Below, piece by piece: positions 1-15,603 of a stretch of 33,921 nt of DNA. Location of the stretch: positions 1 through 33,921 of the forward strand of contig JBCCIM010000049.1 in assembly GCA_039111535.1 (NCBI GenBank). The letters are read 5' to 3'. The position numbers and the translations under genes are program-made. The notes under the pieces were generated by a model. The model was not told the origin of the DNA, made no database searches, and saw only the letters and a program-made list of their open reading frames with translations. How positions within the stretch are numbered: position 1 is the first letter of the stretch; every line of letters starts with the position of its first letter. This stretch comes from Bacteroidota bacterium (GTDB lineage Bacteria > Bacteroidota > Rhodothermia > Rhodothermales > JAHQVL01).

Positions 1-304
1 CCCGAAATCCCAACAACCCGAAATCCCAACAACCCGAAATCCCAACAACCCGAAATCCCAACAACCCGAAATCCCAACAACCCGAAATCCCAACAACCCG
101 AAATCCCAACAACCCGAAATCCCAACAACCCGAAAACACAACAACCCGAAAACACAACAACCCGAAAACACAACAACCCGAAAACACAACAACCCGAAAA
201 CACAACAACCCGAAAACACGAAACCCCGAAAACACGAAACCCCGAATACCCAAAACCCCGAATACCCAAAACCCCGAATACCCGAAACCCCGAATACCTG
301 GAAT
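1..304. repeat. 16-bp tandem repeat (minisatellite), about 19 units
   Basis: The sequence is a head-to-tail array of 16-bp units in register from base 1. Units 1-8 (1-128) are CCCGAAATCCCAACAA. Units 9-13 (129-208) are CCCGAAAACACAACAA. Units 14-15 (209-240) are CCCGAAAACACGAAAC. Units 16-17 (241-272) are CCCGAATACCCAAAAC, unit 18 (273-288) is CCCGAATACCCGAAAC, and unit 19 (289-304) is degenerate. Each unit looks like a diverged dimer of an 8-mer close to CCCGAAAC. Variants occur in blocks, which suggests unit-by-unit expansion. The array runs off the left edge, so its full size is unknown. It contains no stop codon in any frame on either strand. Confidence 0.97.
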
Positions 305-389
305 AAAAAAAAATTCCTGGTCTTGTAAACCGATCCGTCCTATCCTGTGTCCATAGCAGCAGAACACAACCAGGTGTACAGCAAGCGCG
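305..389. other. Leader between the repeat array and the sigma-factor gene
   Basis: This short spacer starts with an A-rich run flanked by GGAAT (300-304) and ATTCC (313-317), a small inverted repeat around A8. Stop codons close all three forward frames here (304-306, 326-328, 354-356), so any reading frame entering from the repeat ends in this spacer. A promoter for the downstream sigma gene would be expected here, but I see no convincing -35/-10 or Bacteroidota-type motif. Confidence 0.4.
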
Positions 390-953
390 GTGATAAACGT
401 ATCCCAACAACAGATTAATCAGACGTTTCGTGAGGTGGTAACTACACACCAGCGTGACCTCTATTTGTGGGCGTTCAGGCTTACGGGCAATCACCACGAT
501 GCTGAAGATTTGTCGCAAGAGGTTTTTATCAAAGTACACGCCAGCCTCGACGGTTTTCGTGGCGAGGCGGGGATGAAAACCTGGATTTACCGGATTGCGG
601 TTAACACCTATTTGAATAAGCGACGCAAAAAGGCACTCACGTTTATGAAGTTGCAAGACGACATCGAGCAAACCATGCAGGCCCGGGCTGGCGGGCATGG
701 TGTAGAAAACGTATTTCGCGATACGGATGCTGCCGCTGAGTCCAATGCAATCAAAGCGTTTGTAGACAAAGCGCTCAAACATCTTTCGAGAAAGGAGCAT
801 ATGGCGTTTGTATTGCGCCACTACAACGACCTGTCGGTCAGAGAGGTCGCAGATGCCATGCAAGTAGCAGAAGGTACTGTAAAGAGCTTGCTTTTTCGCG
901 CCGTTCAGAAATTGCGCAAGCACCTGGCTTTCATCGCAGACACCGGAAAATAG
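390..953 (+). CDS. ECF-type RNA polymerase sigma factor
   Basis: This 187-residue protein has the two-domain layout of group 4 (ECF) sigma factors and would direct RNA polymerase to a small regulon. Region 2 spans roughly residues 14-80 and includes the DAEDLSQEVFIKV stretch and the TWIYRIAVNTYLNKRRKK promoter-recognition helix. Region 4 spans roughly residues 125-180 and carries the helix-turn-helix LSVREVADAMQVAEGTVKS. The start is GTG at 390; no better ATG precedes the conserved domain and no strong ribosome-binding site is visible. The next gene, 36 bp downstream, encodes a membrane-bound zinc-finger anti-sigma factor, so the pair is very probably a co-transcribed sigma/anti-sigma switch. 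The family call is secure; the regulon is unknown, although the HEAT genes behind it are obvious candidate targets. Confidence 0.93.
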   Translation: MINVSQQQINQTFREVVTTHQRDLYLWAFRLTGNHHDAEDLSQEVFIKVHASLDGFRGEAGMKTWIYRIAVNTYLNKRRKKALTFMKLQDDIEQTMQARAGGHGVENVFRDTDAAAESNAIKAFVDKALKHLSRKEHMAFVLRHYNDLSVREVADAMQVAEGTVKSLLFRAVQKLRKHLAFIADTGK

Positions 954-989
954 CCGGCCTATGCGCGCCAGCACAAAGCACACAAGACT

Positions 990-1862
990 ATGTCAGATCA
1001 AGTTTGTACGTCAAGAGAGCATCAGATAGTAGACGCCTTGTTTGGCGATCTCGATGCAACCGGATTGGCTGACTTGCAGCAGCACATGGACAGTTGTTCA
1101 GGCTGCGCCGGTGCCTTTCAGGAAATGCAGCAAACACTCGACGTAACTGCCCAGGTGCCCGTACCAGATGTGCCGGCTGATTACTGGTCTGGGTATTATG
1201 AACGCCTTGAAGCGCGGATGTACGCTGGACAACGGGTGGCGCGGCCTTTTGCACACCTGGGTGCAGCCTGGCAGCAAGTCCGGTTGCGTCTCGCTCCCTA
1301 TTTTTCGCCACGCCCTGCATACATGCAGTGGGGCACTGCCCTGGCGTTGGTCCTGCTTGGTGTATTTATCGGCCGGCAATGGCAAGACAATCCAACTGCC
1401 GTCCCGCTTGCCCCGGCGCCGGCACAGACCGATCCGTTGCTCCAGCCCGCACAACTCTCTGAAAAGACACACCAATACCTGGACCGGTCCAAAGTCCTTT
1501 TGCTTGGGCTCGTGAATTTTGACGTCGACGAAGATGATCCGGCATTCATAAACCTTGAGCACAAACAGATCCTCGCCAATGAGTTGGTCCAGGAAGCTGC
1601 GCTGCTTAAAAACGAATTGTCGGAAAATCGCGAGCAGCAGCTTTCTGCGCTTGTCGAAGAACTAGAACTGATCCTCCTGCAAATTGCAAACCTTGAGTTA
1701 CAGCAAGACGTGCCTTCCATCGAACTCATCCAGCGCGGTGTAGATCGTGGGGCCTTGTTGCTGAAGATCAACCTGGAAAAAATGAAACTATCCGAACGCG
1801 AAGCGCCGGCGCCGGCAAAAACCGCGGACGAAGAACAGGCGGCCGGATTCCTGATGCTTTAA
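990..1862 (+). CDS. Membrane-anchored zinc-finger (zf-HC2 type) anti-sigma factor
   Basis: The 290-residue product begins with a short zinc-finger domain containing HxxxCxxC (H32, C36, C39), typical of ZAS-type anti-sigma factors that hold an ECF sigma factor inactive at the membrane. One hydrophobic segment near residues 112-131 (WGTALALVLLGVFIG) would be the single membrane span. It leaves about 110 cytoplasmic residues and about 160 extracytoplasmic residues. The outer part is rich in Glu, Leu and Gln (roughly residues 165-270) and looks helical or coiled-coil, a plausible sensor or partner-binding surface. It lies 36 bp after the sigma gene and 50 bp before the first HEAT gene on the same strand. 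The start ATG at 990 puts the finger at the N-terminus as expected. The signal sensed is not readable from the sequence. Confidence 0.88.
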   Translation: MSDQVCTSREHQIVDALFGDLDATGLADLQQHMDSCSGCAGAFQEMQQTLDVTAQVPVPDVPADYWSGYYERLEARMYAGQRVARPFAHLGAAWQQVRLRLAPYFSPRPAYMQWGTALALVLLGVFIGRQWQDNPTAVPLAPAPAQTDPLLQPAQLSEKTHQYLDRSKVLLLGLVNFDVDEDDPAFINLEHKQILANELVQEAALLKNELSENREQQLSALVEELELILLQIANLELQQDVPSIELIQRGVDRGALLLKINLEKMKLSEREAPAPAKTADEEQAAGFLML

Positions 1863-1912
1863 CAGGCAACCGGTACTGCTATCTATCAACAGTATTTCAT
1901 CGAACGAGAAAA

Positions 1913-3463
1913 ATGATGCAAAACAGAACAATGATATGGCTTGTTGCCGGCATGGCTTGCCTGCTCATGGTGAAGCCGGCAACTGCGCAAACAGACGCGG
2001 CAGAAGCATACAGCAAAGCCTATGAATTGCTTATTGCTTCCCAATACAATGCCTCAAACTCGGCGTTCTCCGAGTTTATGGATGATTATCCCGACAGCAA
2101 ATGGAAGGATGATGCCACCTACTGGACTTGCCATCTGAAGGAAAAGATGGAAGAAGATGCGGAAGACGCGTTTGAATGTTATGCGATGTTTGTAGATGAT
2201 CATTCGCGCAGTAAGTGGGTGGACGATGCAAAAGCCAACCTGATTCGGATTGGCCGGCAACTGGCTGCCGAAGGAAAGCCCGGGTATGCCAAGCAGTTAA
2301 CCGCCATGCAGAAGGGGGACGACGAAGAGGTGGCCCTTTCGGCACTCTATGCATTGCAAAATATCGGCGATGAGCGGGCCTTTGAGACCATTATGGAACT
2401 GTACAAGCGTTCTGACAGCGCTGACCTTCGGGGCCGCATTGTGTATATCCTCGGGAATTTTGATACCGATGCCGTTGTTGAGCAATTGGCAATGATTGCA
2501 AGAGAGGATGCCTCAGAGTCGGTACGCAAAAATGCGGTTTACGCCCTTGGCAACAGAGGCGGAAGGGCTGCTTCTGAATCGCTGATGGAAGTTGTGGAAG
2601 ATGGTACCAACGAAGAAGTGCAGAAAGCAGCACTCTATGCGCTCGGCAACGCTGATGAATCTGGTATATCTGCGTACCTGATGTCTGTTGCTACTTCTAC
2701 CCAAAATGTAGAACTGGGGCGTGCAGCAACCTATGCTTTGAGCAACACGGGAAGTGCCGGGGCTTCGGATGCCCTTGAGGCGTTGTTGAAGACCACAACC
2801 GCTCTGGTTGAAGTGCGAAAAGCAGCGTTGTATGCGCTCGGTAACCACGACAGTGAGTCATCGCTCATGACCTTGCGAGATGTTGCCATCAATGGTGACG
2901 AAAAGGTATTACGCAAAGCGGCTGTTCACGCGATGGGGAACCATGACCGTGCCAGCAACATGCTGCGCCAGGTATATGAAGGCATTGCTGAACGTGAGCT
3001 CAAAGAAGCTGCGCTCTATGCCATTGGCAATACGGATGACGATGACGCTGCCGCCTATCTGAAAAAGATCGCAGTCTCTGAGACGAATGAAGACCTTGCG
3101 CGGGTAGCCATGTATGCGCTTGCCAATAACACGAACGATGAAGAAGGTGATCTGATGGAAGTGTACGAGAAGGCGCGACACCTCGCCGTTAAAAAGGCAA
3201 CGTTACATCGCCTTGCAGATTCACCAAATGCGCTGATGAAAATCCTGCGCACGAGTGATGACGCTGAAATCAGGCAGACAGCCGTCTATGCGCTGGGCAA
3301 TGCCGGCGATGACGAGGTAGTCCCAACACTGCTCCAAATTGCGAAAGACGACGCAGATGTATCCGTTCGGAAAGCTGCTGTCAATGCACTCGGTAATATC
3401 GGGTCGGATGCAGCGCAAGAAGCCATTCTTAAGATCCTGAAAGAAGGGATTGGTCAAGACTAA
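1913..3463 (+). CDS. Exported TPR/HEAT-repeat protein (12 YALGN-type repeats)
   Basis: The 516-residue protein has a signal peptide (residues 1-26, ending PATAQ) and should act in the periplasm or at the outer envelope. Residues 28-130 resemble a YbgF/TPR-like helical domain with the DYPDSKWKDDATYW and DDHSRSKWVDDAK turns. From about residue 140 onward I count 12 HEAT-like repeats of about 31 residues with the core VRKAALYALGN; one near residue 425 is degenerate (VKKATLHRLADSP). HEAT solenoids usually scaffold protein-protein contacts, and no catalytic motif is visible. The gene lies between the anti-sigma gene and a second HEAT gene 17 bp downstream, which implies one transcript. Two adjacent ATGs (1913, 1916) are possible starts. 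The family is clear; the function is unknown. Confidence 0.9.
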   Translation: MMQNRTMIWLVAGMACLLMVKPATAQTDAAEAYSKAYELLIASQYNASNSAFSEFMDDYPDSKWKDDATYWTCHLKEKMEEDAEDAFECYAMFVDDHSRSKWVDDAKANLIRIGRQLAAEGKPGYAKQLTAMQKGDDEEVALSALYALQNIGDERAFETIMELYKRSDSADLRGRIVYILGNFDTDAVVEQLAMIAREDASESVRKNAVYALGNRGGRAASESLMEVVEDGTNEEVQKAALYALGNADESGISAYLMSVATSTQNVELGRAATYALSNTGSAGASDALEALLKTTTALVEVRKAALYALGNHDSESSLMTLRDVAINGDEKVLRKAAVHAMGNHDRASNMLRQVYEGIAERELKEAALYAIGNTDDDDAAAYLKKIAVSETNEDLARVAMYALANNTNDEEGDLMEVYEKARHLAVKKATLHRLADSPNALMKILRTSDDAEIRQTAVYALGNAGDDEVVPTLLQIAKDDADVSVRKAAVNALGNIGSDAAQEAILKILKEGIGQD

Positions 3464-3480
3464 AATTCAGGTACAAGTAT

Positions 3481-4107
3481 ATGAAATACAATTACTTAGG
3501 CACAATACTCGTGGCTTGCTTTATTGGATCGATGCTCGTGGTTGGTGGTGCGCAGGCTTGTAAACATTATCCATTCCTCACCGACTGGATGGGCGCCGGC
3601 TGCTGGCTCAATGACTCGCAGGATAAGGTGTTCAACGAGGCCGGCACACAGAACATCGCGCTGCACATCATGGACATGGCAGGCGTAGAGCCTGCGAATG
3701 GCAATGCCGATCTCTCCAAAGAAGCCATTTATGCGCTTGCACGCACGGGCACTGAAGATGCGGCAACCGTGCTGCGCGCCCTGGCGCTGACACATGCCTC
3801 GCTTGAAATCAGGAAAGCCGCCCTGTATGCGCTTGCAGAGTGTCTGGAAGATGAGGCCTTGCATAAAACGTACAGCGATATTGCCCAATATGGTGACGAA
3901 CTTGAATTGCGCGTAGCCGCTGTACATCAACTCGGGCAATTGGATACGGATAGCGCTGTACCATTCCTCACAGATATTGCCCTCTCGCCTTACCCCTTGT
4001 CGCTTCGAAAAGCCGCCGTACATGCCCTACAGACAAACGACTCCGATGTAGCCCGGCAGGCGCTTTACAACATTCTCTCCAACACAGCTGCCGCCTTTGC
4101 AGGTTAG
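3481..4107 (+). CDS. Small exported HEAT-repeat protein
   Basis: This 208-residue product has an N-terminal hydrophobic export signal (roughly residues 1-26, ending GGAQA before Cys27). The residue at -3 relative to that cysteine is Ala, so it does not fit a normal lipobox and cleavage by signal peptidase I is more likely. Three cysteines lie in the mature N-terminal region (ACKHYP and AGCWLND, then one in repeat two). Residues 75-205 hold about four HEAT-like repeats with cores such as IRKAALYALAE and LRKAAVHALQT, related to those in the upstream protein but without the YALGN asparagine. It starts 17 bp after the previous stop and ends 26 bp before the next HEAT gene. It looks like the middle member of a three-protein set; its role is unknown. 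Confidence 0.85.
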   Translation: MKYNYLGTILVACFIGSMLVVGGAQACKHYPFLTDWMGAGCWLNDSQDKVFNEAGTQNIALHIMDMAGVEPANGNADLSKEAIYALARTGTEDAATVLRALALTHASLEIRKAALYALAECLEDEALHKTYSDIAQYGDELELRVAAVHQLGQLDTDSAVPFLTDIALSPYPLSLRKAAVHALQTNDSDVARQALYNILSNTAAAFAG

Positions 4108-4133
4108 GTCACAGGTACGCCGAGGAATCAACC

Positions 4134-5276
4134 ATGAAAACCGTTTTACATACCACAGCAACCCTTTTTCTTTTTCTGGTAGTCTGTGCCTTGCCGAATA
4201 CGGGCATTGCCCAAAAAGTTAAAATCCATCCTGATGAAGATAAAGCACTCGCTGCACGCATGGATTGGGCCGCGCAGCAAAACGTGCGTGGAGATGGATA
4301 CTGGGTGGGATACAATATCACCAAGTTTATGCGGCCGAATGTGTGGATGGGCAGCATTGGAGGCAAAAACTGGAGCCGGCGTAAGTCAATTTACGCATTG
4401 ATTGGCCAGGAAGACCGCGAGCAGGAATTGCCCGACGAATTAAAGGAAGATCTCGGGTTTTCCATGAAAGGGACCATGCATTTTGGCAAGCATAAAAAAA
4501 ACACAGATGTACGCGTTGCACGAGATATTGCGATCCTTATGTATGTCAAAAAGAACCGCAAGGGGCCTACAGACATTCACCTTTCCAATATGTCACTGGG
4601 CGTAGACCTCGAGAACCGCCCCTTGTTCTGGTTAGGGAAAGCGGGCGATGAAGAGAGCGCCACCATGCTTGAGGAAATGTACCACGCAACGTCGCACAAC
4701 AGCATGAAGTCAGATTTGCTCGGTGCAATCAGCATCCACGAAAACAAGGCACGCCGGCTGGCTTTCCTCGCTCAGATCCTTGAGAACGAAAAAAGCCCGG
4801 ATGTGCGTGAAGATACAGCGTTTTGGGTTGGGCAACTCGACTTGCCCGAAGGGCTGGCTGTATTGCAAAAAGTAATAGCAACCGATCCATCAATGGATGT
4901 GCGCGAACACGCAGTGTTTTCTATGTCGGAAATGTCGTCTGAGGAAGCGCTGGAAGCACTCATTGAACTCGCCAAGGACGGCCAGCAAAAGGTGGTTCGG
5001 AAGAAAGCTATTTTCTGGTTAAGTCAGCATGCCTCCAAAAACGCAATACAGGTAATCGAAGAGATTGTAATGGACGATAAAGACCTGGCAATACAGGAGC
5101 AAGCTGTGTTTGCGCTTTCACAGTTTCCAGCAGATGAGAGTGTGCCTCGCTTGATTGAAATTGCTGAAAATCATCAGAGCGTTGAGGTTCGGAAAAAAGC
5201 CATATTCTGGCTTGGGGATTCTGGTGATCCGCGCGCTGTGGATGCTTTGATTGCACTGGCCAGGCGGAAGAACTAG
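4134..5276 (+). CDS. Exported HEAT-repeat protein with FWLG-type repeats
   Basis: The 380-residue product has a clear signal peptide (residues 1-26, ending NTGIAQ). The N-terminal third (residues 27-150) is not obviously repetitive and contains a Trp/Gly-rich stretch (WVGYNITKFMRPNVWMGSIGG). From about residue 155 to the end there are six or seven HEAT-like repeats whose core is VRKKAIFWLGDSG, VREDTAFWVGQLD or IQEQAVFALSQFP. The aromatic FW at the inner helix differs from YALGN in the first HEAT protein, so the solenoids probably bind different surfaces. GAGGA at 4122-4126, 7 nt before the ATG, is one of the few good Shine-Dalgarno sequences in the window and supports this start. It is the last gene of the sigma-factor unit, and a terminator hairpin follows at 5363. 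Confidence 0.88.
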   Translation: MKTVLHTTATLFLFLVVCALPNTGIAQKVKIHPDEDKALAARMDWAAQQNVRGDGYWVGYNITKFMRPNVWMGSIGGKNWSRRKSIYALIGQEDREQELPDELKEDLGFSMKGTMHFGKHKKNTDVRVARDIAILMYVKKNRKGPTDIHLSNMSLGVDLENRPLFWLGKAGDEESATMLEEMYHATSHNSMKSDLLGAISIHENKARRLAFLAQILENEKSPDVREDTAFWVGQLDLPEGLAVLQKVIATDPSMDVREHAVFSMSEMSSEEALEALIELAKDGQQKVVRKKAIFWLSQHASKNAIQVIEEIVMDDKDLAIQEQAVFALSQFPADESVPRLIEIAENHQSVEVRKKAIFWLGDSGDPRAVDALIALARRKN

Positions 5277-5362
5277 CTGGGCTGAAGGGCAAGCAAGGGC
5301 AACCCGGATAAGGGTAGTTATAGCCAACTTATCGGACAGATACGACTAACTGGTTGGGACAG

Positions 5363-5390
5363 AGCCGGCACACGTGGGGTGCCGGCTTTT
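5363..5390 (+). terminator. Rho-independent terminator after the HEAT unit
   Basis: AGCCGGCAC (5363-5371) pairs perfectly with GTGCCGGCT (5379-5387) around a 7-nt loop and runs into TTTT (5387-5390). It lies about 90 bp after the last HEAT gene. It ends directly before the stop codon of the convergent minus-strand gene at 5392. The T-run is only on the plus side, so it should mainly stop rightward transcription. Confidence 0.8.
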
Positions 5391-5391
5391 G

Positions 5392-5841
5392 TCATACAGG
5401 CTGCGCTACAAGATGGCGGCGGATATTGGCAAACGTGTCTGCCCAACCCTTTTTGCAATCTTTGAGAAAAGAATCAGCGTCAGCTGTATCGGGGAAGCCA
5501 GCCTGGGTTACCGAAAGCACGGTACCATCAGGGTGGGGCGAAAGCCTGAAGTCCACAGAAAAGTCTGCTTCAAACGGGAGTGCTTCAGTTTTTGTGTGGT
5601 AACTGTACGAACTGAGGCGCATGCGCACGGCAGGTTCAAACGTCTCGATGGTCGCTGCGGAGATATAGTCCGGGTTGTCTTCGTCGGCTCCCCAGGCCGC
5701 ACACCATGTACCACCCCGTTCCGGGTGCACTATAACCTGGGTTGCACCCCACCAGTCGCGTATTGCACTTGGGGTATGTAGCAGGCGGAATACATCAGCA
5801 GGCGATGCCGGCAGGATTTCTTCGTGTCTATGTGAACGCAT
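5392..5841 (-). CDS. SRPBCC / AHSA1-like small-molecule-binding protein
   Basis: The 149-residue protein matches the START-like fold of the AHSA1/SRPBCC group. The N-terminal strand is HEEILPASPADVFRLLHTP, followed by the family's IRDWWG motif, a central antiparallel sheet (TWCAAWGADEDNPDYISAATIETFEPAVRM is the region), and a C-terminal helix with GWADTFANIRRHL. This is the usual length for the family. These proteins bind hydrophobic ligands or act as cochaperone-like or toxin-resistance factors; nothing here picks out one ligand. It lies about 120 bp downstream of the nitrilase-like gene on the same strand and may share its transcript. No signal peptide is seen, so it is probably cytoplasmic. 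The assignment is at superfamily level only. Confidence 0.85.
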   Translation of the reverse strand: MRSHRHEEILPASPADVFRLLHTPSAIRDWWGATQVIVHPERGGTWCAAWGADEDNPDYISAATIETFEPAVRMRLSSYSYHTKTEALPFEADFSVDFRLSPHPDGTVLSVTQAGFPDTADADSFLKDCKKGWADTFANIRRHLVAQPV

Positions 5842-10318: not shown

Positions 10319-11851
10319 ATGATGTACACCCCGATTTCCCACCTAAACGGACGACTGCTTGCAGCCCTTGTGCTTGCATTTGTCTTTCTAATTCCCCCCA
10401 CAGTTGTCGACGTAAGCGCGCAAAGCGGCACGTTCTTCAACCAGCGTGATGATACCTATCCGTTGTTGGGCCTGCGTCGTGCAAAAGAAGCGTTTGATAC
10501 ACAGAAAGTGGAGTATGAGCGTCAGAAAGGGTTGCATGATAAACAGTTGATCTCGGAAGCAGCGCTGGAACAGGCGTTCCGAAATTACTCCGAAGCCGAA
10601 GTGAATTTTCAGCAGTCGCTGCTGGCGGTGATTTTTGAGCAGCAGTATATCGTTGTCTCCCGTGCGGTTAAATACCAGAAAGACAACCGCAAAAAGGGAG
10701 TTCGGCTCACCCTTGAAAATGCATCCAAAGGAAGCGGCGAATACGAGAAGCTGATTGGTATCGATGATTCTTTGTTTACGTTGCTGAAGCCGGATGTGGT
10801 TAATAACATTTATATTTCATTGCTCAACGATGATAACGCCATCATCAGCCAGCCGTATGAAAGAAAAATAGACCAGTTGCTTTACGGCAAGCCAAAAACG
10901 GTCAATTTTGAATTGTTGCAAGAATTGGACGCCGTTACGGTGAGTCTGATTTACGGCAATGGCTCACAGCAGAGCCGCAAAATCTATCTACAGAAAGACG
11001 ACTCTGAAAATATTGCGTCGATTAAGCCTGAGCAGTTTTCTCAGGAAGTGGAGTTGAGTGGCAATACGGATTACCGGATGTCGCTCGAGCTGTTCAGCAG
11101 TGATGCAAACACGTTCAAGCTCGAAGCTGTTAACCTGCCTTCTGAGATCAACCGCTATTTTGTTGATCCGGCTACAGACAACCGGTTGAGCCAATTCCAG
11201 TTTACAGAAGGCGTGAATACGCGGGAAGCAGCTTTGCGTATTTTCTTGCCTGAGCGTCCAACAGATAACGTCAAAATTGACGAAGGCCTGACCTTTTTCG
11301 CAATTTCGATTCCCAGAGAGCGAATTGAGGAAATTGGCGACGTAAGCCGGCGCCAGATGACGGAGGAAGAGATTCAGGCCCTCAACGTAGGATATGCCAA
11401 GCTTGAACTGGTGCCGCGTGGCATCGGTGAGATCCTTGTGCGGGCGCCCCTGCTTTCGTTTACCATCAAACCTGATGAAGAGGTGGTGGTAAACCTGGAA
11501 GTTGTCAACGAAGGGACACGTAGCCTGAATAATGTGCGCGTTGAAGCAGATCCGCCGCTGAACTGGACGGATACCATCAGCCCAGAAGTTATTCAGTCGC
11601 TCGACATTAATGAGGAGCAGCAGATACAGCTCCGTTTCAAGCCGGCGCCCAATGTTGCGCCCGGTCGCTATGAGGTGCGTGTACAAACGACCTCGCTTTC
11701 AGACGATTTGCCGATTCGCGGAGAGGACAAAACAATTTCGATTCAGATAGAAGCTGAAGCAAATGTGTTTGGCACCCTCATCGTGGTACTGTTGATTATT
11801 GGGCTTGTACTGGCCATTATCATCTTCGGTATCCGACTCTCCCGCAGGTAA
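10319..11851 (+). CDS. Membrane protein with adaptor-like coiled coil and NEW3 domain
   Basis: The 510-residue protein has a signal peptide (residues 1-35, ending VSAQ) and a C-terminal membrane segment (about residues 482-504, VFGTLIVVLLIIGLVLAIIIFGI) followed by a short basic tail, so nearly all of it is extracytoplasmic. Residues 45-120 form an alpha-helical stretch (EYERQKGLHDKQLISEAALE) that resembles the helical hairpin of MacA/HlyD-type periplasmic adaptors. The middle is beta-rich and unassigned. Residues about 380-470 resemble a NEW3/CARDB-like Ig-fold domain (FTIKPDEEVVVNLEVVNEG, LNWTDT, APGRYEVRVQT). It starts the cassette, 28 bp before the ABC ATPase, so a role as periplasmic subunit of that exporter is likely by context. 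The exact function is unknown. Confidence 0.8.
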   Translation: MMYTPISHLNGRLLAALVLAFVFLIPPTVVDVSAQSGTFFNQRDDTYPLLGLRRAKEAFDTQKVEYERQKGLHDKQLISEAALEQAFRNYSEAEVNFQQSLLAVIFEQQYIVVSRAVKYQKDNRKKGVRLTLENASKGSGEYEKLIGIDDSLFTLLKPDVVNNIYISLLNDDNAIISQPYERKIDQLLYGKPKTVNFELLQELDAVTVSLIYGNGSQQSRKIYLQKDDSENIASIKPEQFSQEVELSGNTDYRMSLELFSSDANTFKLEAVNLPSEINRYFVDPATDNRLSQFQFTEGVNTREAALRIFLPERPTDNVKIDEGLTFFAISIPRERIEEIGDVSRRQMTEEEIQALNVGYAKLELVPRGIGEILVRAPLLSFTIKPDEEVVVNLEVVNEGTRSLNNVRVEADPPLNWTDTISPEVIQSLDINEEQQIQLRFKPAPNVAPGRYEVRVQTTSLSDDLPIRGEDKTISIQIEAEANVFGTLIVVLLIIGLVLAIIIFGIRLSRR

Positions 11852-11879
11852 TAAAAAACGTAGTAAACAGAGATAGACC

Positions 11880-12638
11880 ATGGAAACATCAACGCAAGCC
11901 AACGGCCATGCCATGTTGGAAGCCGACCAGCTATCCAAACGGTATGAAGACGGCCATCTGGCGCTGGATAGCCTTAACCTGACTGTAAACGCCGGCGAGG
12001 TATATGCCATGCTCGGTGGTAACGGCGCTGGCAAAACCACGGCGATCAACCTGTTTCTCAATTTTATTGAGCCGACTTCAGGAGAAGCGCGGGTGGATGG
12101 CATTGTTACCCATAAAGAACCCCTGCTTGCCAAGCAGAAAATTGCCTACGTCTCGGAAAATGTAATGCTTTACCCCAACTTTACGGCATTGCAAAATCTG
12201 GACTTTTTTGTCAAGCTGGGCGGTAAAACGAACTACACCAAGGACGATTATCGACGTGTGCTTTTGCGGGTAGGCCTCCAGGAGGAAGCCCATAACAGGC
12301 GGCTCAAGGGATTTTCAAAAGGGATGCGCCAGAAATGCGGTATTGCCATCGCTATTCTGAAAGATGCCCGGGCCATTTTGCTGGACGAGCCTACAAGTGG
12401 TCTGGATCCGAAAGCCGCTTTTGAGTTTACCAAACTCATTCTTTCCCTCCGTGAAGAAGGAAAAGCGATTCTTATGTCTACGCACGACATTTTTCGGGCT
12501 AAAGACATCGCCGACATTGTGGGCATCATGAACCTGGGCAAGCTGGTGATGCAGCGGACGAAAGAGGAAATTGCCGGCGAAGATCTCGAAAAACTGTACG
12601 TCGAATACATGGCCGGCTATATGGACCAGGCCGCGTAA
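11880..12638 (+). CDS. ABC transporter ATP-binding protein (ABC-2 exporter type)
   Basis: The 252-residue protein is a complete ABC ATPase. Walker A is GGNGAGKT (residues 46-53), the signature is FSKGMRQK (145-152, a common ABC-2 variant of LSGGQ), Walker B is AILLDEP (165-171), and the switch His is H202 in STHD. The Q-loop position reads VSENVMLYPN, with Glu instead of Gln, as in a number of ABC-2 exporters. It would energise the two permeases encoded next, in the cytoplasm. It is 28 bp after the NEW3 protein and 45 bp before the first permease. The substrate cannot be deduced; relatives drive drug, lipid, polysaccharide or maturation-factor export. Confidence 0.95.
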   Translation: METSTQANGHAMLEADQLSKRYEDGHLALDSLNLTVNAGEVYAMLGGNGAGKTTAINLFLNFIEPTSGEARVDGIVTHKEPLLAKQKIAYVSENVMLYPNFTALQNLDFFVKLGGKTNYTKDDYRRVLLRVGLQEEAHNRRLKGFSKGMRQKCGIAIAILKDARAILLDEPTSGLDPKAAFEFTKLILSLREEGKAILMSTHDIFRAKDIADIVGIMNLGKLVMQRTKEEIAGEDLEKLYVEYMAGYMDQAA

Positions 12639-12654
12639 ATCCCTACGGATTTAC
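12635..12654 (+). other. Intercistronic hairpin overlapping the ATPase stop codon
   Basis: GTAAATCC (12635-12642) pairs perfectly with GGATTTAC (12647-12654) around the loop CTAC. The ATPase stop codon TAA (12636-12638) lies inside the left arm and TTT follows the right arm. The stem is short and A/T-rich and the T-run weak, so partial attenuation or mRNA processing between ATPase and permeases is more plausible than full termination. Confidence 0.5.
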
Positions 12655-12683
12655 TTTCAAAAAAACGCAGCACAACAAACATC

Positions 12684-14096
12684 ATGTTAAAACTTCTTGT
12701 CGAAAAAGAACTGCGCGACATAGTCAGTTCGACAAAGTTCACCATCACCTTTGCGGTATGTGCCGTGCTTATCCTGCTTGCTTTTTATGTAGGTGCACGC
12801 AACTACCAGGTAAGCATGAACGAGTATGAGGCAGCGCAAGCTGAGAACCTCAAGCAGATGCAGGAGCTTACCAGTTGGAACGACATCGAACACCGGATTT
12901 TCCTGAAGCCACAGCCATTGGCAGCGCTGGTGTCTGGTGTGTCGAATGACATTGGGCGAAACCTTGAGGTGGAAACCCGTGGTGAATTGCGCACCGAAAA
13001 CAGCAGATTCAGCGAAGATCCGCTCTTTGCCGTTTTCCGATTCCTCGACCTGGAGTTCATATTTACAGTGGTGTTGTCCCTGTTTGCAATTTTGTTCGGG
13101 TATGATGCTGTAAACGGAGAGAAAGAGCGTGGCACGTTGCGGCTCTCTTTTTCAAACTCCGTTCCGCGAGACAAATACATTTTGGGCAAAATTATCGGAT
13201 CGTTCCTGGCGCTGGTTGTACCGTTGTTGGTTGCAATATTGCTCGGTTTCCTGTTGTTACCGCTGTTTGGGGTGCCGATGACGGGCGATCTCTGGATGCG
13301 ACTTGGCCTGATTGTGCTGTCTGGCCTGTTGTATTTCAGCGTCTTCCTCACGCTTTCCGTGTTTATCTCTGCGATGACAGAGCATTCATCCAGCTCATTC
13401 CTGATGTTGCTTGTAGCCTGGATTTTTGCCGTGCTTATTATCCCGAGAACAGCTGTGTTGTTGTCTGGCCGCGCGGTTGATGTGCCATCGATGGACCAGA
13501 TCAACTTCGAGAAATCTGCTTTTGAAGACCAGCTTTGGCAGGAAGACCGGAAGAAGATGGACGAATTCTGGCGTTCCAATCCGTCGAACCCGTCAGAATC
13601 GCGCGAGCAGCGGATGATGCAGTTCCGTACGTTTATGACCGAACTGGCAGACGCCCGGGATGAAGAAGAACGCAAATTTGCAGAGCAATTGAACGAGGAC
13701 AGGAGGAACCGGGAAAATGTACAGCAACGGGTAGCACTCAATATTGCACGGATTTCGCCGGCAGCCTCTTTCTCGTTGGCATCCGCCGACCTGGCGGGCA
13801 CATCGCTGGAACTGAAACGCCGCTTTCAGGAAACCGCAGATGACTACCAGGTAAATTATGCAGAGTTTATAAATGAGAAAACAGGCGGCCTGGGCGGCGG
13901 CTGGTGGTCTCGTGGCGGGGGAGAAACCCAGAGTGAAGCCATCGACCCGTATGAGTTGCCGGCGTACACCTTTGAAGAGCCGCCGGCTTCAGAACTTGTG
14001 TCGGGGGCACTTCCCGATATCGGGATCCTTGTCATGTTTAACCTGCTCTTTTTTGTTGGCGCATTTGTGGCCTTCCTCAAATACGACGTGCGGTAG
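12684..14096 (+). CDS. ABC-2 type permease, first of two paralogues
   Basis: The 470-residue protein has six predicted membrane segments, near residues 19-37, 121-140, 171-195, 205-229, 236-258 and 444-464. Two large extracytoplasmic loops, about 38-120 and 259-443, separate them. The loop design and the NGEKERGTLRLSFSNSVPR stretch after the second span are typical of ABC-2 permeases of the NosY/DUF3526-like kind. The second loop is highly charged and helical and carries a Gly/Trp-rich patch (GGLGGGWWSRGGG) near residue 405. It lies between the ATPase and a related permease 58 bp downstream, so the two probably form a heterodimeric channel. Confidence 0.9.
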   Translation: MLKLLVEKELRDIVSSTKFTITFAVCAVLILLAFYVGARNYQVSMNEYEAAQAENLKQMQELTSWNDIEHRIFLKPQPLAALVSGVSNDIGRNLEVETRGELRTENSRFSEDPLFAVFRFLDLEFIFTVVLSLFAILFGYDAVNGEKERGTLRLSFSNSVPRDKYILGKIIGSFLALVVPLLVAILLGFLLLPLFGVPMTGDLWMRLGLIVLSGLLYFSVFLTLSVFISAMTEHSSSSFLMLLVAWIFAVLIIPRTAVLLSGRAVDVPSMDQINFEKSAFEDQLWQEDRKKMDEFWRSNPSNPSESREQRMMQFRTFMTELADARDEEERKFAEQLNEDRRNRENVQQRVALNIARISPAASFSLASADLAGTSLELKRRFQETADDYQVNYAEFINEKTGGLGGGWWSRGGGETQSEAIDPYELPAYTFEEPPASELVSGALPDIGILVMFNLLFFVGAFVAFLKYDVR

Positions 14097-14154
14097 CGGT
14101 ATCCTCCTTATTCATCTGGGTAGCTGCCGGCTACGCGTTTAAAGTTCCAAGACC

Positions 14155-15603
14155 ATGTTTAGCATTCTATTTGAAAAAGAACTCAAGTCGATTTTTCTGA
14201 GCCCCAAGTTTTTTGCAACATTCGGGGTTTGCTCTCTACTCATCCTGCTGAGCGTTTTTGTGGGTATCCAGGAATACAACAACGAGCAAGAGCAATATGA
14301 AACTGCGCTGCGGCTCGCCGAACAGCAAATTATGCAGGAAGATTCCTGGTGGGGCATTGACAATGTTGTGTTCCGCCAGCCGCAGCCTATGCAGATTTTT
14401 GTATCTGGTGTCAACAACGATATCGGACGAAGTGCAGAAATTAACACCTGGGTTGAGCCCAAATTGGAGCGGAGCAACTACGCAGATGACACCCTGTTTG
14501 CCGTATTCCGGTTTATTGATCTGACCTTCATCGTGCAGGTTGTGCTGTCGTTGTTTGCGATCCTGTTTACTTACAATAGCATCAATGGTGAACGTGAATC
14601 GGGCACCCTCAAGCTGGCGCTTTCCAATGCTGTGCCGCGTGCGCAGTATGTGCTTGCCAAGTTTGCCGGCTCCTGGATCGGGCTAACCATTCCGCTAATG
14701 ATACCCATATTGCTCGGGGTGCTCCTGGTCATGGTGCTTGGCATACCGATGGATTCTGGCGATTGGGCGCGCCTAGGTACGTTGGTTGGATCCTCTGTCT
14801 TATACTTTACTTTCTTCATCGCCTTTGGCCTTTTTGTGTCTTCCATTACCAAAAGGTCTTCGGTCTCCTTTTTGATTTTATTGGTAGCCTGGGTTGCACT
14901 GGTGCTCATCGTGCCGCGTGCTGCAACAATGGCCGCCGGCCAGATTGTACCTGTTACCAGTGTAGCAGAAATTGAAAGCCAGAAAGACCGTTTTCGTACA
15001 GACCGCTGGAATGCCTACCGCGTCATAAGGCGGGATATGCGGGAAGAACGCGAAGCAGCTATGTCTGGCATGACGCGTGAGGAACGTGATCAGTACCAGC
15101 AGGCGAATCAACAATCCTGGCAGACCGAAGAACGCACGGCACGTGATACACTCGAAGACGAGATCAACGAGTTCTCGCGCAAAGTTGATGAAGAGCTGCG
15201 CAACCAGAAAACAACGCAGGAGCGGATGGCCTTTACCCTGTCCCGGTTCTCGCCAGCCTCAGCCTACAAGCTGACCGCCATGCAAATGGCAAATACGGGT
15301 ACGGAGTTGAAAAGCGAGTACGAGGATGCCATGAAAGCGTACCGCACAAGTTTTTCGCAGTTTGTGGAAGCCAAGCGGGAAGAAGAGCGCAAAAAGAATG
15401 CTGGCCAAGGTGGATTTGGGCGAAACAGAAACCAGGAACAGGAACCCCTGGATTTGGCTGAATTACCCCGATTTGAAGCCCCTGCTCAAGAATATGCTGA
15501 AGCTATTGCACCAAGCATCATCGATTTCGGACTGTTGAGCCTGTTTTCGATTGCAGCTTTTGGTGGCGCATTCGTTTCTTTCATCCGATATGATGTTCGA
15601 TAA
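14155..15603 (+). CDS. ABC-2 type permease, second of two paralogues
   Basis: The 482-residue product closely parallels the preceding permease. It has an N-terminal span (about residues 19-37), FRFIDLTFIVQVVLSLFAIL for the second, and the block NGERESGTLKLALSNAVPR matching NGEKERGTLRLSFSNSVPR. Both end with a membrane segment and a FxxYDVR tail (FIRYDVR here, FLKYDVR there). The second large loop is again helical and charged, with MTREERDQYQQANQQ and a Gly/Arg patch near residue 420. The similarity points to tandem duplication followed by divergence, giving a heterodimeric ABC-2 channel with the upstream ATPase. No terminator is obvious before the TonB receptor gene 118 bp downstream, so read-through is possible. 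Confidence 0.9.
   Translation: MFSILFEKELKSIFLSPKFFATFGVCSLLILLSVFVGIQEYNNEQEQYETALRLAEQQIMQEDSWWGIDNVVFRQPQPMQIFVSGVNNDIGRSAEINTWVEPKLERSNYADDTLFAVFRFIDLTFIVQVVLSLFAILFTYNSINGERESGTLKLALSNAVPRAQYVLAKFAGSWIGLTIPLMIPILLGVLLVMVLGIPMDSGDWARLGTLVGSSVLYFTFFIAFGLFVSSITKRSSVSFLILLVAWVALVLIVPRAATMAAGQIVPVTSVAEIESQKDRFRTDRWNAYRVIRRDMREEREAAMSGMTREERDQYQQANQQSWQTEERTARDTLEDEINEFSRKVDEELRNQKTTQERMAFTLSRFSPASAYKLTAMQMANTGTELKSEYEDAMKAYRTSFSQFVEAKREEERKKNAGQGGFGRNRNQEQEPLDLAELPRFEAPAQEYAEAIAPSIIDFGLLSLFSIAAFGGAFVSFIRYDVR

Follow-up and report, generated by a model that had tools for sequence, protein, structure and literature searches.

An ECF sigma factor operon of Rhodothermales with exported HEAT-repeat proteins as candidate partners of a membrane anti-sigma factor

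Genes and proteins of the operon

The window, the whole stretch of DNA analysed here, is 33,921 nucleotides long and comes from the draft genome (355 contigs) of a Bacteroidota bacterium of the order Rhodothermales. Near its start, genes for an ECF sigma factor, a membrane anti-sigma factor and three HEAT-repeat proteins (HEAT1, HEAT2 and HEAT3) lie on one strand, separated in this order by gaps of 36, 50, 17 and 26 bp. The ORF coordinates were rechecked, and the five ORFs, their strand and their gaps were exactly as the original prediction had given them. The features are listed below.

324..352, + strand: candidate ECF-type autoregulated promoter, TGTAAACC-N16-GTGTCC (-35/-10 like), recognised by conserved boxes and spacing
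390..953, + strand: ECF sigma factor (sigma2 and sigma4 domains), GTG start; Pfam/NCBIfam matches and family tree
990..1862, + strand: membrane anti-sigma factor; ZAS-like cytoplasmic domain, Hx3Cx2C, one span, helical outer domain
1913..3463, + strand: HEAT1; exported TPR/YbgF-like domain and HEAT solenoid, invariant third operon member, with C73/C89
3481..4107, + strand: HEAT2; short exported HEAT protein, similar gene in some relatives
4134..5276, + strand: HEAT3; exported, N-terminal beta domain and HEAT solenoid
5363..5392, no strand assigned: terminator hairpin with T tract, from the fold z-score, coordinates read from the sequence

A terminator had been predicted at the operon end, and a G+C-rich hairpin, AGCCGGCAC...GTGCCGGCTTTT, followed by a T tract was indeed found there at about 5363-5392. 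The fold z-score for 5277-5400 was -4.35. The hairpin is common to a convergent AHSA1-like gene. At the other side, window positions 1-298 hold 18.6 copies of a 16-base unit (consensus CCCGAAAACCCAACAA), which form the very end of the contig and directly precede the sigma operon promoter. Further downstream, at 10319-15603, a membrane protein, an ABC-type ATPase and two ABC-2-like permeases were read from the translations in a row.

ECF sigma factors contain sigma2 and sigma4 domains only, and their own operon promoters carry an AAC-type -35 and a GTC-type -10 box. Class I anti-sigma domains often have an Hx3Cx2C motif and are encoded next to the ECF gene. The window sigma factor matched Pfam Sigma70_r2 (1e-16) and r4_2 (3e-14) and NCBIfam TIGR02937 above its cut-off; these two promoter-binding domains are the only ones it has. 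The anti-sigma factor contains H-x3-C-x2-C, then a membrane span at about residues 114-132 (read by eye), and then a helical outer domain. It had been called a zinc-finger protein. The Pfam zf-HC2 match stayed below the cut-off (17.1 versus 22.2 bits), and zinc ligands are absent from the anti-sigma factor of at least one relative. The assignment held by other routes, as a family profile built from nine relatives matched RsiW (5wuq) in the PDB at E 5e-8, with weak matches to RslA, ChrR and DdvA, and the predicted N-terminal fold resembled RsiW and RslA in a structure comparison of the model. The system is an ECF sigma factor with a class I (ZAS-type) anti-sigma factor. The outer domain has two conserved segments, YLDRSKVLLLG and ILLQIANLE...DVP, and its model is of low confidence (mean pLDDT 65.5).

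All three HEAT proteins matched Pfam HEAT_2 (HEAT1, 4e-52; HEAT2, 6e-12; HEAT3, 4e-28). By eye, they begin with hydrophobic N-terminal segments that end in signal-peptidase-like sites. The N-terminus of HEAT1 is a TPR/YbgF-like domain (NCBIfam TIGR02795, 6e-10). HEAT3 was modeled with a mean pLDDT of 81 as an N-terminal beta domain plus a HEAT solenoid, and the best PDB matches of the modeled solenoid were alphaRep proteins. Against the phycobilin lyase families CpcF, CpeY and NblB, the HEAT proteins scored far below the NCBIfam cut-offs. Pfam and NCBIfam returned HEAT/TPR families only, and no MucB/RseB match was among them.

Conservation of the gene order

The order sigma factor, anti-sigma factor, HEAT1 on one strand was found in ten genomes of the same order (G002, G003, G030, G008, G045, G020, G006, G050, G043 and G375; G numbers denote genomes and L numbers loci of the survey). 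G017 and G036 have it too, spread over two contigs. Outside the order, the same order and strand were seen in G166, G288 (twice), G062, G217 (twice), G108, G285 and G070. The arrangement recurs in at least 10 genera of the order and also outside it, in further classes of the phylum. With the anti-sigma factor as query, 13 of 60 relatives matched at E <= 1e-3, a list that includes paralogous matches, and 11 showed sigma/anti-sigma/HEAT1; G047, with HEAT repeats in its anti-sigma factor, departs from this order. All these figures describe a sample, in which gene calls in G+C-rich relatives are mechanical and several neighbourhoods stop at contig borders.

A triplet of HEAT genes had been predicted. 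The window and G045 have three such genes; G166, G020 and G006 have a single one, G288, G062, G217 and G008 have two, and G003, G030 and G375 have four. The conserved core is therefore sigma factor, anti-sigma factor and the TPR-HEAT1 protein, and the triplet is one variant of it. Since loci carry between one and four HEAT genes, the architecture does not depend on HEAT2 and HEAT3. Distant anti-sigma matches in G252 and G315 had no HEAT genes after them. In G252 (L139:7369-9756), the gene after a related sigma/anti-sigma pair with the same promoter type encodes an exported DUF1573 protein.

The N-terminal domain of HEAT1 was searched separately in the 60 relatives. All 12 genomes with a match at E <= 1e-10 have a copy in this operon; weaker matches (E >= 1e-7) lie outside this count. 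A further copy lies at a contig end in G002, and the operon of G011 is a divergent version. At high score, HEAT1 is confined to this operon among the genomes searched, bar the contig-end copy of G002. Outside the phylum, a single scan gave two HEAT proteins without sigma/anti-sigma neighbours. Other classes also have a second operon subtype (L133-L136, L138) with a shorter TPR-HEAT protein, and the aligned ones do not have the cysteine pair of HEAT1. Both subtypes are present in G217 and G288.

Promoter motif and candidate targets

A search for an ECF promoter motif upstream of position 390 had been proposed. The motif TGTAAACC-N16-STGTCY was found at 324-352, 37 bp before the GTG of the sigma gene. 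With small variations it precedes the sigma gene in 14 members of the order (the window and 13 more), and the distance from the -35 core to TGTC is always 17 nt. Variant boxes are TGTAACC in G036 and TGTCG in G406. The upstream region of the G050 sigma gene is cut by a contig end, and in the divergent G011 the motif is absent directly before the sigma gene. Relatives from different families share the -35 core, the spacing and TGTC. The spacers between the boxes are on average only 35% identical, so the boxes were kept while the rest diverged. The conserved boxes fit the AAC-type -35 and GTC-type -10 pattern, with TGTC in place of the classical CGT in this order and CGTC in several loci of other classes.

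A looser form (GTnAAC or similar, N17, nGTC) lies 28-68 nt before the sigma genes of G166, G288, G062, G217, G252 and G315. The chance rate of this form is about 0.011 per 150 nt. Two of these six other-class loci, G252 and G315, have no HEAT genes. The second G217 copy has a version with 16-nt spacing (by eye). The looser motif is missing from a distant group of fused zf-HC2-HEAT systems described below. Autoregulation is typical of ECF operons (PMC8103513). Autoregulation of the operon is very probable, since the motif stands with unchanged spacing before almost every related sigma gene of the order. The sigma, anti-sigma and HEAT genes would form a single transcription unit with an envelope-responsive ECF switch.

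A search for the shared motif elsewhere in the genome had also been proposed. Individual sites do precede other genes, and whole-genome counts of the strict motif, minus the operon's own sites, were not above a reversed-pattern control. A general regulon read from the strict motif was rejected for this reason; either the regulon is small or the motif is too loose. Often a genome has no convincing strict-motif site other than that of the operon.

One outside candidate stood out, an orthologous CBM9/DUF5916 protein, whose G003 and G043 members were found via the motif. Among the 11 other orthologues with upstream sequence, four (G002, G030, G047 and G406) carried a site of >=13 bits no more than 350 nt upstream. 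The binomial P, for a background of 0.0055 per window, is about 3e-7, an approximate value because the background is random genomic sequence, mostly coding. None of 12 paralogues had a site, nor did the orthologue in the window's own genome. That genome has motif sites ahead of genes for a polysaccharide deacetylase, an exported redoxin-like protein and a serine hydrolase of the beta-lactamase family, which are unconfirmed leads as sigma targets. The redoxin-like gene had no match in the other 15 genomes searched. Four motif sites precede FtsX/MacB-like permease genes (G008 twice, G003 and G050). These were weak as regulon members, since none of 29 other homologues had the motif and the family is very large. 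G008 has 48 matches at E <= 1e-60; the loci of the carriers are L076, L077, L081 and L074.

HEAT repeats and the anti-sigma factor

In one family, seen in G047 and G406, the anti-sigma factor consists of zf-HC2, a membrane span and HEAT repeats. It lacks the helical outer domain, and no separate HEAT gene lies downstream. In the tree, the sigma factors of both genomes group with those of systems that have separate HEAT proteins, within the fifteen-row clade of the order (support 100/99), and the promoters of both are of the same type as the operon promoter of the order. The HEAT_2 match in the fused protein is above the Pfam cut-off in G406 (E 1.4e-7) and below it in G047 (E 1.2e-4). HEAT repeats also occur in the anti-sigma factors of another, distant ECF group (G283, G340, G409, G205 and a G288 paralogue), where the two loci tested encode DUF4097 proteins downstream. 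Directly upstream of the operon, G043 (L031:607-4253) encodes BlaI, an M56/BlaR1 protein whose C-terminus carries fused HEAT repeats, and an exported HEAT protein.

The best case for HEAT proteins in the signal path is that HEAT repeats stand where the outer domain would be and that the separate HEAT genes are absent. It had been suggested that the solenoids could report to the sigma/anti-sigma pair or be induced by it. Two checks proposed with this suggestion, on gene order in relatives and on the motif before the sigma gene, turned out in its favour. The swap in an orthologous system speaks for the first part, indirectly. The second, weaker part follows if the autoregulated promoter is active. 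Taken with the conserved order, the autoregulatory motif and the confinement of HEAT1, the swap suggests that, outside the membrane, the HEAT proteins act on the anti-sigma factor or through it, in an RseB-like manner, and are not outputs only; we lean toward this reading with modest confidence. Some points weigh against it. Linkage under an autoregulated promoter is equally expected for HEAT effectors, the number of HEAT genes is not fixed, and both the HEAT match of the G047 fusion and the model of the anti-sigma outer domain are weak.

The HEAT proteins might instead be outputs only, that is, periplasmic scaffolds or chaperones made on sigma release, and the operon a self-contained stress-response cassette. 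This is a possibility to be taken seriously, if not the one we would choose. A single predicted autoregulated promoter agrees with it, as do the variable HEAT number, the divergence of HEAT2 and HEAT3, and the other motif sites before exported or envelope genes, as in an output regulon. However, the outer-domain swap with loss of the separate HEAT genes better fits a role in the signal path, and at high score the only HEAT1 copy unlinked to the operon is at a contig end.

A special case of the partner reading is that HEAT1 is a redox or oxidative-folding sensor whose exported cysteine pair controls the anti-sigma factor. C73 and C89 of HEAT1 are invariant in nine aligned Rhodothermales-type sequences, in a wider set they nearly always occur together or not at all, and one own-genome motif site precedes the redoxin-like gene. 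However, two cysteines in a periplasmic protein usually form no more than a structural disulfide, neither cysteine is present in four divergent HEAT1 proteins, and the redoxin-like gene is restricted to its own genome among those searched. We consider this sensor very unlikely. HEAT proteins and ECF pairs are each common, and their meeting here by chance, or as a loose cluster without shared regulation, could be imagined. This is refuted by the same order across classes, the orthologous TPR-HEAT1 protein and the conserved promoter motif, and its probability is close to nil.

The model in which HEAT proteins act via the anti-sigma factor builds on gene order, conservation, the promoter-like motif and the domain swap; beyond these we infer an active promoter, binding, proteolysis, feedback and the kind of signal. 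The sigma factor would be held at the inner membrane by the one-pass anti-sigma factor with its ZAS-like cytoplasmic domain. The exported HEAT proteins would be co-transcribed with it and serve as its extracytoplasmic partners, as inhibitor or sensor, and may attach to its helical outer domain or bind a ligand in the envelope. Their binding would decide whether the anti-sigma factor releases the sigma factor or is cut to release it. Free sigma factor would then transcribe its own operon, resetting sigma factor, anti-sigma factor and HEAT partners together, along with a small set of other genes.

The arrangement parallels RpoE-RseA-RseB of E. coli, which has an ECF sigma factor, a one-pass membrane anti-sigma factor, an exported partner in the same operon and positive autoregulation (PMC8103513). 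The window operon has the first two, exported partners and predicted autoregulation. Unlike RseB, its partners are HEAT solenoids, one to four in number, one with TPR and one with a beta domain, and none matched the RseB family. By family the system is not RseA/RseB, and the likeness would be one of role only. With SigW-RsiW of B. subtilis and RslA of M. tuberculosis it shares the ZAS-type cytoplasmic domain, and RsiW was the best PDB match by profile and fold; the large conserved helical outer domain and the HEAT partners in the operon set it apart. The zf-HC2-HEAT anti-sigma systems of the phylum with DUF4097 (toastrack) neighbours, characterised here from sequences alone, also combine an ECF sigma factor with HEAT repeats beyond the membrane span. 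However, they fuse HEAT to the anti-sigma factor, their sigma factors form a separate clade, and DUF4097 replaces the HEAT genes (two loci). The BlaI/BlaR1 (M56) pair with C-terminal HEAT resembles the window system in placing a solenoid on a membrane signal protein, whereas it signals by repressor and protease, not by sigma/anti-sigma. A literature search in which few subscription journals were covered found no published description of a sigma/anti-sigma/HEAT operon.

We tentatively suggest, without strong conviction, that periplasmic HEAT/TPR solenoids may be a distinct modular class of extracytoplasmic ECF anti-sigma co-regulators in this phylum, which occur as separate exported proteins, fused to the anti-sigma factor where its outer domain would be, or fused to BlaR1-type sensors. 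To our knowledge, exported HEAT-repeat proteins are common and mostly have no assigned function. If such proteins partner anti-sigma factors as sensors or inhibitors, a large number of periplasmic solenoids that now lack annotation would gain a testable role. A bacterial group with few studied ECF systems would also gain a defined switch, a candidate promoter and a natural domain swap for dissection.
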